DNA of 14,502 nucleotides from Desulfobacterales bacterium (GTDB taxonomy: Bacteria > Desulfobacterota > Desulfobacteria > Desulfobacterales > BuS5). Both the position numbers and the translations under genes were made by a program. The stretch spans positions 1 through 14,502 of the forward strand of contig JAERRQ010000342.1 of NCBI GenBank assembly GCA_016735355.1. The letters are read 5' to 3'. Of the stretch, positions 8,772-13,160 are shown one piece after another (the first letter of the stretch is position 1; each line of letters opens with the position of its first letter). The notes under the pieces were generated by a model that saw only the letters and a list, made by a program, of their open reading frames with translations, was not told the DNA's origin and did no database searches.

Positions 8772-11700
8772 TTGGAAACATTATACGATTTTTTTGCCAA
8801 ACCGATGGACCCTAAAAGATATTCCGGTGTAAAAATAGAGTTGGCATCACCGGAGCAGATCCGTAAATGGTCGTTTGGGGAGATTAAGAAACCCGAAACA
8901 ATAAATTACAGGACATTTAAACCTGAACGTGATGGTCTTTTTTGTGCCAAGATTTTTGGTCCTACCAAGGATTATGAATGTAATTGCGGCAAATATAAAC
9001 GTATGAAGCATAGGGGGGTTATCTGTGAAAAATGCGGCGTTGAAGTAATACAGTCAAAAGTCCGCAGAGAAAGAATGGCTCATATCGAGCTCGCCTCACC
9101 TTGCGCGCATATATGGTTTTTGAAGAGTCTGCCCAGCAAAATCGGCACTCTTCTAGACATGACCTTAAAAAATCTTGAGAAAGTACTCTATTTTGACTGT
9201 TATATAGTAATGGATCCCAAGGATACCGAGTTAACGCGCGGGCAGTTGCTGTCTGACGACAAGTATTATGAGGCCCTTGATACTTTTGGGGAGAATTTTG
9301 AGGTCGGCATCGGCGCTGAGGCTGTTAAAAAGATGCTGGAGAATGTTGATCTTGAAGCGGAATATGCTCAGCTAAGAATAGATATCCAGAACACCGGCGC
9401 CATTGCCAAGCGCCAGAAATATTCTAAAAGACTGAAGGTAATTGATTCTTTCAGGCGTTCAGGCTTGAATCCGGTCTGTATGATAATGGAGTGTATTCCT
9501 GTCCTGCCGCCTGATTTGCGTCCGCTTGTTCCTCTTGAAGGCGGAAGATTTGCGACTTCCGATCTTAATGATCTTTACCGGAGGGTAATTAATCGTAATA
9601 ATCGTTTAAAACGTCTTATAGACTTAAAGGCACCTGATATTATAGTTCGCAACGAGAAGAGGATGTTGCAGGAAGCCGTTGATGTACTATTTGATAACGG
9701 AAGACAGGGCAGGGTCATTTTAGGTACCAATAAACGTCCCTTAAAATCCTTAAGTGATACATTAAAGGGTAAGCAAGGGCGGTTCCGTCAGAATCTGCTC
9801 GGAAAAAGGGTCGATTATTCCGGTCGTACTGTTATTACTGTAGGGCCTAATCTCAGGTTGCATCAGTGCGGTCTTCCAAAGAAAATGGCTCTTGAGCTCT
9901 TTAAACCTTTTGTTTATTATCGCCTTGAAAAAAAAGGCATAGTTTCTACTGTCAAGAGTGCCAAAAAAATAGTAGAAAAAGAAACGCCGGAGGTTTGGGA
10001 TGCTTTGGATGAGGTTGTGAAGGAATATCCTATTTTCCTTAACCGCGCTCCCACTCTTCATCGATTGGGAATACAGGCCTTTGAACCTATACTAATAGGG
10101 GGCAAGGCTATTCAGCTTCACCCGCTTGTTTGCACTGCATTTAATGCCGATTTCGACGGGGATCAGATGGCAGTTCATATACCCCTTTCCATTGAATCAC
10201 AGATTGAGGCCAGGGTATTGGTTCTGTCCAGCGATAATATTCTTTCCCCTGCTAATGGCAAACCTATCATTGTTCCAAGTCAGGATATTGTTCTAGGTAT
10301 ATATTACATGACTAGAGGAATTAGCGGTTTGCCAGGTGACGGTACGCTATTTTCAAGTTTGGAAGAGGTTCGCTCAGCCTTTGACGCAGGTGCGATTGAT
10401 CTTCATTCTAAAATCATAGTACGTATCAATGGTGTAAGGGAAGAGACCACGGTCGGCCGGGTTTTGCTGTACGAGATCCTGCCCAATGAAAAGGTCTTTA
10501 GCTTTAACCATATAATTGTTTCGACAGAGGAAGATGCGAAGAGCATATTGGATAGCTTGAAGAACGGAGGCTCTTTTAAAGAGTTATCGATTGAATATTC
10601 AAATAACCAGGATGAAGAGAATAACGCTTTTCTGACCAAGGAAGAATTTAACAGGTTTTTTAATATAAAAAGCGAGGAAGCCGATAAACTTTATTCGCAA
10701 GAACCCGGAACATATAGTGAAATCTTTTTTGATGGTGATCTCTACCATCTTTTTGAGGTGGTAGCCAAGAAGCCTGATATAGCTTTTGATATAATAAATA
10801 AAGTAATGGATAAAAAGTCTCTTGGCCAACTTGTCGATTCCGTATACAGGAACCTTGGGCCGAAGGCTACTGTGATACTTGCAGACCGCTTGAAGGATCT
10901 AGGTTATGAATATTCGACTAAGGGAGGGTTATCAATATCCATAGATGCTATGATAATTCCTCCGGCAAAACAGGATATAATTAAAAGAGCTGACGCACAG
11001 GTTAATGAGATAGGCAGGCAGTATACGGAAGGTCTCATAACCCAGGGTGAAAAATATAATAAAGTCGTCGATATATGGGCTAAAGCTACTGATGACGTTG
11101 CCAATGAGATGATGAATGCCATGAAAATGGTTTCTCCCATGGATAATGAGGATGTCGATATTGTTATTAATAAAGACAGTCAATCCGGTCCTACAGAAAG
11201 TTTTAATCCTATTTATATGATGGCCGATTCCGGAGCAAGGGGCAGCAAGGATCAAATGAGACAATTGGCGGGGATGAGGGGGCTTATGGCGAAACCGTCA
11301 GGTGAAATTATAGAGACTCCCATTAATGCCAATTTTAGAGAGGGTCTTTCGGTTCTGCAATATTTCATTTCCACCCACGGAGCAAGGAAGGGATTGGCTG
11401 ATACAGCATTAAAGACGGCAAATTCAGGATATCTTACAAGGCGGTTGGCCGATGTTGCCCAAGACTGTACGGTAATTATGCATGACTGCGGCTCTGTTAG
11501 CGGCATCCAGGTAGAGCCTCTAATGGAGGGCGGAGAGGTTATTCAGCGTCTGGGTGAAAGGGTATTGGGACGTGTAGCTGCTGAGGATGTTATAGATCCT
11601 TTTACGGATGAACTGCTTGTCAAGATGGGTGAATATATTGATGAGGCTGATGTTAAAAAGATAGAAGCCGCAGGTATTATTATTGTAAAAATCAGGTCTG

Positions 11701-13160
11701 TATTGACGTGTAAGGTTAAAAATGGAGTATGTATTAAGTGTTATGGTCGTGATCTTGCTCATGGGAGGCCGGTTGAGATAGGTCAGGCAGTAGGAATTCT
11801 GGCCGCCCAGTCTATAGGCGAGCCTGGAACCCAGTTGACAATGCGGACATTTCACATCGGAGGAACAGCCAGCCGAAGGGTTGAGCAGGCTGATATCCGA
11901 GTAATGTCGGATGGTAAGGTAAAGTATATAAGTCTTAACGCTGCGGTTAATTCAGAGAATAAGATGGTTGTAATGAATCGAAAAGGTGGTGAATTTGCAA
12001 TTATTGGCAACACAGGCCGGGAATTAGAGCGTTTTCCTGTAATTTACGGAGCTCATATAAATCTGAATGAGGGTGATAAAGTAAAGCCGGGAGATTTGCT
12101 TGCAACCTGGGATCCCTTTACAACACCTATTTTGACCGAGGTGGGGGGAGATGTCAAATTTGGGGATATAAACCTGGGAAAAACAATGCAGGTGAAAGTA
12201 GACCCTGTGACAGGAAAATCGAGTCGCATGATAATCGAATCAAAAAACGTAGAGGAACGTCCGAGGATTTCCATTAAAGACAAGAGCGGCAAGACAGCCG
12301 ACATGAAGTCCTCTGAGGGCAAAGCTCGTTATTATCTGCCTGTGGACGCTATACTCCTGGTTGAAGAGGGGGATAGTGTAATGCCTGGAGATGTGATCGC
12401 CAAACTGCCGCGAGCGACAACCAAGACAAAAGATATTACAGGAGGTCTGCCAAGGGTTGCCGAGCTTTTTGAAGTTCGCAAACCAAAAGAGATGGCTATT
12501 CTGAGTGCAATTGACGGGTATGTATCAATTAGAAAAGGCACAAAAAAAGGAAAACGGAAAGTTACAATTACCCCTGTCGACGTTGGAGATAAAAAGGAGT
12601 ATTTGATTCCCCAGGGTAAACATATCAATGTTTATGAGGGCGATTATGTAAAGGCGGGCGAACATCTTATCGGAGGTTCAGCAAATCCGCAGGATATTCT
12701 GAACATTAAAGGTGAGATTGCATTGGCTCGTTACCTGGTAAATGAAGTGCAGGAAGTGTATAACCTGCAGGGCGTCCGTATCAATGATAAACATATTGAA
12801 GTTATAGTGCGTCAGATGATGAAGCGTGTAAAGATTATTGATTCGGGGGATACCGATTTTATTATTGAGGAACAGGTCGATCGCATTAGGTTTGAAGAGA
12901 CAAACAGCGCTGTTATGGAGAATGGGGGTAAACCGGCTGTTGCCGAGTCGTTGATTCTCGGAATAACCAAGGCATCGCTAAGTACCGAAAGCTTTATTTC
13001 GGCAGCTTCTTTTCAGGAGACAACAAAGGTGCTGGCGGAAGCGAGTATTTCAGGCAAAGTTGATCATCTTAAAGGACTTAAAGAGAATATTATTATGGGT
13101 AGACTGATTCCTGCTGGTACCGGCTTTCCCGAGCATGGTGCTTTCGATATTGAAATATAA
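8772..13160 (+). CDS. rpoC: DNA-directed RNA polymerase subunit beta' with an inserted parvulin-like domain
   Basis: This encodes 1462 residues from a TTG start, with GAGGT at 8761-8765 a few bases upstream. RpoC carries the polymerase active site. The first zinc site is C70, C72, C85, C88. The catalytic NADFDGD motif gives D460, D462 and D464. The bridge-helix region contains [14 protein letters not shown] (from about residue 812). The second zinc site is C906, C980, C987, C990. The trigger loop includes MRTFHIGG (about 1024-1031), followed by the large proteobacterial trigger-loop insertion up to [16 protein letters not shown]. The C-terminus matches the family ([14 protein letters not shown]). 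Unusually, about residues 572-670 have no counterpart in E. coli beta' and resemble a peptidyl-prolyl isomerase. The frame is open throughout. Confidence 0.97.
10485..10781 (+). other. PpiC/parvulin-like domain inserted in RpoC
   Basis: These are residues about 572-670 of beta'. The flanks [10 protein letters not shown] and [13 protein letters not shown] align with the continuous E. coli stretch around VPKGLPYSIVNQALGKK, so the segment between is an insertion. It opens with [19 protein letters not shown] and continues with [12 protein letters not shown]. It closes with [19 protein letters not shown], the order and spacing of a parvulin rotamase (a HILV-type strand, a helix, SFxELAxxYS, then GxxSxxxxxxxGYHIxxV). 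The two histidines typical of the fold are present (H580, H659). The central GGDLG motif is degraded to NNAFL, so catalysis is uncertain. A binding role on the polymerase surface near the secondary-channel rim is an inference. Confidence 0.75.

Follow-up and report, generated by a model that had tools for sequence, protein, structure and literature searches.

The rpoC gene of a bacterium assigned to Desulfobacterales (assembly GCA_016735355.1, contig JAERRQ010000342.1) raises the question of what an interruption of approximately 97 residues in a conserved part of the RNA polymerase β' subunit is, and what it might do there. The stretch of DNA analysed, referred to here as the window, comprises 14,502 nucleotides, and a Pfam scan of nine ORFs together with rpoC models gave the gene order secE-nusG-rplK-rplA-rplJ-rplL-rpoB-rpoC-rpsL-rpsG. 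The host protein scored 1735 bits against the TIGR02386 rpoC model (cut-off 963.5).

Alignment with insert-less relatives (L053, L060 and L061), in which an unbroken EIVP-x-E(I/L)P(F/Y) runs across the site, places the inserted part at approximately residues 572-668, confirming the claim of a preliminary description of this DNA that about 97 residues interrupt a conserved β' stretch. That description had placed the insert at 10485..10781; the start held, while the end lay two residues too far, falling at 10775 by the same alignment (Table 1). It had also considered a frame error improbable, and an assembly or frame error as the source of the insert is ruled out by the uninterrupted rpoC frame and by a second copy in a genome of the same genus (G002; 2 contigs, 97% complete), where the insert is present at 87% identity. 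Since a member of the same genus has it, the insert is not an assembly artefact. Restriction of the insert to the genome of the window is likewise ruled out, as it is present in many independent genomes.

Table 1. Positions in the window of rpoC, its insert and the insert residues compared with Pin1; fractions are counts among 64 inserts.
Feature	Position	Strand	Basis or detail
rpoC, RNA polymerase β' subunit, host of the insert	8772-13160	+	single open frame, TTG start, 1462 aa
Host segment 5' of the insert	10212..10484	+	matched by E. coli β'
Inserted parvulin (PpiC-type) domain, residues 572-668, ~97 residues, after P571	10485-10775	+	alignment with insert-less relatives; Rotamase; fold
H580, taken as Pin1 H59 equivalent, kept	10509..10511	+	His in 47/64
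N612, taken as catalytic Cys/Asp (Pin1 C113) equivalent, lost	10605..10607	+	Cys/Asp 5/64, Ser 37/64
N618-A619, what is left of the GGDLG loop, which is shorter by three residues than in most relatives	10623..10628	+	alignment
F626, taken as Pin1 M130 (substrate pocket) equivalent, now Phe	10647..10649	+	Phe in 46/64
F630, taken as Pin1 F134 (substrate pocket) equivalent, kept	10659..10661	+	Phe/Tyr in 61/64
H659, taken as Pin1 H157 equivalent, kept	10746..10748	+	His in 51/64
F661, two residues past the second His	10752..10754	+	Phe in 64/64; Ile in 14 cellular parvulins
Host segment 3' of the insert	10776..11051	+	aligns from E. coli β' residue 586 onward; structure compared only to residue 720

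The preliminary description had read the insert as a PpiC-like rotamase and proposed a Pfam search. The isolated insert (99 amino acids) matched Pfam Rotamase (PF00639) with an E-value of 6.2e-5 and 24.3 bits, above the cut-off of 21.7. In a Pfam scan of the whole RpoC protein, the insert region matched only Rotamase_2, below the cut-off (E-value 0.12), and searching the genome of the window with Rotamase at an E-value of 1 or lower found two other genes and missed rpoC. Judged by these scores, the copy in the window is a weak member of the parvulin family. Across the order, 45 of 48 inserts, including that of the window, matched Rotamase at an E-value of 0.01 or lower (best 6.9e-13), and when 25 genomes from the order were searched with Rotamase, rpoC itself was matched in 8 at 1e-5 or lower (best 2.7e-12, in G022). 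In the reverse direction, a profile built from 77 inserts recovered the parvulins of all 30 loci (best 1.8e-21, weakest 2.7e-7), with a PpiD-type protein scoring highest, and gave zero matches against 1869 reversed ORFs. Chance similarity to parvulins is ruled out by the insert profile, the reversed-ORF control and the 45 of 48 Rotamase matches. In a domain tree, a branch (99*) separated 73 inserts from the remaining rows, which is what a single origin predicts; the tree does not fix the donor of the parvulin because it rests on only 110 columns for 103 rows (L034, L035, L036 and L051 were left out).

To examine the fold, the structure of RpoC residues 470-800 was predicted from 81 sequences (pLDDT 81, pTM 0.62). 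Block means across the insert and its junctions in this model were 86-97, except for 66 at residues 610-619, the site of the lost GGDLG loop. The predicted fold of the insert is that of a parvulin, as anticipated in the preliminary description; it matches PrsA, SurA and PpiD and is complete, with four helices inside the domain in a model of the insert. Foldseek E-values for the first model of the insert were modest, the best being 1.7e-4. Both a profile match and a structural match to parvulins, whose absence the preliminary description had named as grounds for dropping its reading, were thus obtained. That the insert is not a parvulin, or reflects an annotation or assembly error, could be argued from the whole-protein scan below the cut-off, the Rotamase search that missed rpoC in its own genome and the modest Foldseek values, but given the fold match, the Rotamase matches, the insert profile and the occurrence of the same insert across many independent genomes, we regard this as almost certainly wrong. 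Profile, fold and tree evidence agree that the insert is a true PpiC/parvulin domain. Some copies deviate in length: the L062 insert (genome G048) has approximately 27 additional residues around the first helix, and smaller additions occur at other places in the inserts of L046 and L091.

The same model was used to evaluate the host. With the insert skipped, host residues 485-720 superimposed on E. coli β' 486-637 over 138 residues at 1.4 Å, and the modelled host fold beside the insert is intact. Host alignments extending into the rim helices gave an rmsd near 12 Å; this part of the model is therefore unreliable and was set aside. The first E. coli β' residue past the insertion site is 586, which puts the site at approximately 585/586. 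The cyanobacterial RpoC1 model matches the protein of the window as far as residue 570 and the RpoC2 model from residue 674/675 onward, indicating that the insert falls at, or close to, the break in cyanobacterial rpoC, a coincidence that is approximate, as 46 positions of the RpoC1 model were unmatched. The cyanobacterial split has been described, in the part of PMC10120043 available, as a surface loop of the enzyme. That this region is split in one lineage and extended in another marks a permissive site in β'. In the rpoC of G062 (C216:10329-14843), the query matches 1-566 and 527-1461 overlap yet are consecutive in the gene, which suggests that approximately 40 residues ahead of the insert have been duplicated or expanded.

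By the E. coli alignment, the insertion site lies in sequence before the part of β' that we take to form the rim helices, and it could be imagined that the insert guards the secondary channel, contacting the rim helices and altering access of GreA, DksA or (p)ppGpp. A precedent would be cyanobacterial SI3, which shields the Gre/DksA site in organisms without these factors (PMC10802570, PMC10120043, as far as the accessible text of each goes). Among 25 genomes of the order, however, GreA and DksA/TraR-type zinc fingers were each found in 24, the sole genome without a GreA or DksA-type gene being 66% complete, so access is probably not abolished, and we consider such a guard very unlikely. The retention of both genes rules out the insert as a replacement for Gre/DksA. 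The preliminary description had imagined nascent proteins, secondary-channel factors or the first ribosome as possible targets of the domain; for these ideas, the retention of GreA and DksA shows no more than that the insert does not take their place.

The distribution of the insert was determined by mapping RpoC across Desulfobacterota, as the preliminary description had suggested. In a class sample of 147 genomes, all of the order of the window, 139 matched residues 481-760, and 135 of these carried the insert, either end to end in one piece (131) or in pieces (4; G048, G106, G119 and G165). The remaining genomes, G021, G025, G080 and G115, were without it. In a phylum sample, 143 of 148 genomes matched; 5 of these belong to the order, and all 5 carry the insert. 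It was not seen in the other 138 (0/138), among which no listed match spans the site, although two of these genomes gave a single weak match only. The best E-value among the matches listed for these genomes was 8.4e-35, compared to values of 1e-70 or better in carriers matched without a break; wherever the listed matches include both halves, the two adjoin in the DNA. The insert is order-wide and limited to one lineage within the phylum surveyed. Two irregular loci were also seen: in G165, rpoC pieces with the insert lie on contigs C16 and C114, one of them frame-broken, possibly representing two strains or copies, and in G114 (C288:4623-5477) there is one in-frame TAG within the rpoC match.

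Gain and loss were reconstructed on a tree of 85 RpoC proteins, 73 insert-bearing and 12 insert-less, which was built without the insert columns by a quick method that left 25 of 82 inner branches open. The tree requires four changes, and the starred branches also force four. With an outgroup, parsimony on this sampled tree gives one gain (branch support 97), early in the order, and at least three losses. By the same criterion, the early branches L053, L060 and L061, which are without the insert, never had it. One apparent loss, in the draft genome G080, is nested among five insert-bearing genomes of the same genus, and this genome keeps both insert edges (PRDNI and KRPEIPF) as a scar around an in-frame deletion. 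Another, in family f23, is common to two genera; the f23 proteins L057 and L058 have a short unrelated linker (SLPEHT or SLPAHE) in place of the VP-x-EIPF of insert-less relatives.

To assess selection, dN/dS was estimated from 12 close non-overlapping pairs picked from close pairs. The value for the insert was 0.296 (bootstrap 0.24-0.36; 0/300 reach 1) versus 0.089 for the remaining rpoC, and none of 114 overlapping 96-residue segments elsewhere in rpoC equalled it, the next being 0.17. The excess varies by pair, with L022/L063 showing none (insert 0.15, rest 0.16). Identity to the window among insert-bearing relatives was 24-42% in the insert and 73-84% elsewhere in RpoC; this range excludes L002 (insert 87%, elsewhere 96%) and L036 (27% and 47%, partly aligned). 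The insert is under relaxed purifying selection, being constrained and yet the loosest tested part of rpoC. Such a pattern bears on the idea that the insert is tolerated filler in a permissive loop, ligand-free and contributing no more than slightly to structure or stability. The dN/dS that tops every segment tested, the location at, or close to, the rpoC1/rpoC2 break of cyanobacteria and the three losses, one by in-frame deletion within a genus, all speak for filler, while a dN/dS well under 1, the retention in 135 of 139 genomes and the invariance of F661 speak against it. A requirement simply to remain folded could account for some of this opposing evidence. On balance, we find the filler explanation unlikely.

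We then compared the putative active site with those of known parvulins, using 64 inserts less than 80% alike and 14 cellular parvulins. Columns of the insert were equated with Pin1 numbering by what we take to be equivalent motifs. The roles of the Pin1 residues follow the available part of PMC6468809. The cellular parvulins were picked by a motif that includes the GG and the second histidine, so their invariance at these columns is a consequence of the selection. The alignment agrees with the preliminary description that H580 and H659 are kept and that the GGDLG motif is lost: at the GGDLG columns, the first Gly was found in 9, the second in 52 and the last in 60 of the 64 inserts, and three columns are deleted in the copy of the window. 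Both histidines are kept in 42 of the 64 inserts, with one or both gone in 22, and only 4 combine both histidines with Cys/Asp. At the C113 position, the cellular parvulins have Cys/Asp in 10 cases and Gly in 4. Of the 64 inserts, 17 retain the Ser/Thr that precedes the second histidine and 47 have lost it.

The consequences of such substitutions differ among the parvulins in which they have been reported. In PIN1At, kcat/Km drops 7-18 fold when the Cys is replaced with Asn or Ser, and for human Pin1 C113S a reduction of 20-50 fold is cited (both in the accessible text of PMC8716364). On the tolerant side, according to the available part of PMC2678132, half the activity of B. subtilis PrsA survives the D154A change and the Pin1 histidines are replaceable, and Pin1 M130Y is active (PMC6468809, in part). 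Weighing the falls in PIN1At and Pin1 C113S against the tolerance of PrsA D154A and of the Pin1 histidines, the isomerase activity of the insert is likely to be reduced and possibly nil. The possibility that the insert is a working prolyl isomerase, which the polymerase would bring to proteins as they emerge or to RNA polymerase subunits as they assemble, would accord with the histidine pair of the window copy and of the 42 inserts noted above, with the 4 that also have Cys/Asp, with a predicted fold that is complete, and with the behaviour of PrsA D154A. Nevertheless, 59 of 64 inserts have lost Cys/Asp, 47 have lost the Ser/Thr ahead of the second histidine, and the GGDLG loop is missing from the window copy, so that a working isomerase seems to us unlikely.

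For a substrate groove that is kept and partly re-made while catalysis has eroded, binding is the most fitting role. The explanation we favor, which we judge to be an even call, is that the insert is a peptide- or factor-docking module anchored to RNA polymerase, with weak or no isomerase activity. The parvulin domain, fixed to the polymerase, would serve as the docking module, and its former substrate groove (F626, F630, F661 and the histidine pair) would bind a peptide segment of a partner or nascent chain. Prolyl isomerization would be weak or absent, since Cys/Asp and, in most copies, the active-site Ser/Thr are gone. We infer that the attachment is fixed from the pLDDT of the model and its short junctions. 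The insert would tune transcription, or the coupling of transcription to other processes, without driving it; this is in keeping with the insert having been lost more than once while the polymerase was retained. Binding with little catalysis has been reported for TbPar42, a parvulin without measurable activity that still binds substrate peptide weakly (about 10 mM; available part of PMC6468809). Several points run counter to docking. The insert evolves approximately three times faster than the rest of the protein, which equally fits passive filler. Moreover, one or both histidines are gone in 22 of 64 inserts, and the activity of PrsA D154A, of Pin1 with replaced histidines and of Pin1 M130Y suggests that changes of this kind may leave catalysis in place.

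In comparison with the cellular parvulins PrsA, SurA, PpiD, Par10 and Pin1 (PF00639), the inserts are homologous in sequence and predicted fold, and most keep the histidine pair and the pocket Phe. They differ in being mostly without Cys/Asp, in the frequent loss of the Ser/Thr (47/64), in having Phe at the Met position of the pocket (46/64), in a six-residue addition after the pocket Phe relative to the 14 aligned cellular parvulins, and in their location inside RNA polymerase. TbPar42 has a PPIase domain of the same fold and differs in keeping the histidines together with the cysteine (PMC6468809, in part).

As an insertion in β', the parvulin resembles the lineage-specific domains BEAN, HABAS/SBHM and SI3, which are likewise in-frame and lineage-fixed with the host intact (available part of PMC11515920). 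The same survey, published in 2024, lists seven insertion locations, one of which, the middle of β'-bD4, is near, and may coincide with, the site described here; the insertion domains it names in β' are BEAN, HABAS and small-left-claw, rather than a parvulin. Its main text, as available, contains neither parvulin, rotamase nor prolyl and no word beginning with Desulfo, and it names Thermodesulfobacteria once. Parvulin, rotamase and PPIase likewise go unmentioned in the available part of a 2026 survey of domain insertions (PMC13114784). No BEAN domain was among the 50 insert-model matches listed, and the four modelled helices distinguish the insert from HABAS, a barrel-sandwich hybrid of beta strands only, as in the SI3 tail (PMC10120043, in part). 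A description of a parvulin in β' was absent from the literature searched (titles and the starts of abstracts), although Lane and Darst 2010 and Iyer, Koonin and Aravind 2004 may list it. In the protein database, Rotamase is already annotated on at least two insert-bearing RpoC proteins (P0003 and P0004). Each of two database searches for insert-bearing proteins of RpoC length listed at least 2, one of which was in either case the protein of the window or an identical one. Lineage-specific β' insertions are well known, and the parvulin insert, visible in databases, is apparently undescribed as far as our search extended. A folding domain fixed in β' over most of an order, with three losses, provides a natural experiment on the function of such insertions.

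The cyanobacterial polymerase offers two further comparisons. In rpoC1/rpoC2, approximately the same region is broken, but there the chain is cut and here it is extended. For SI3, a trade-off with Gre/DksA has been proposed (available part of PMC10802570), whereas the insert coexists with GreA and DksA. In eukaryotes, Ess1/Pin1 acts on the CTD of Rpb1, so that there too a parvulin is paired with the largest subunit of RNA polymerase, but as a separate protein on a phosphorylated tail, while the insert is built into β' (PMC4496705, in part). We tentatively raise the possibility that the Desulfobacterales polymerase has a built-in peptide reader, a parvulin isomerase turned docking groove that would recognize a segment containing proline, whether in a transcription factor, a ribosomal protein or a nascent chain, and would couple transcription to it. 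This would constitute a possible and testable physical link of transcription with peptide recognition, and a bacterial, within-subunit counterpart of Ess1/Pin1 acting on Rpb1, a comparison that the orthology of β' and Rpb1 makes concrete.
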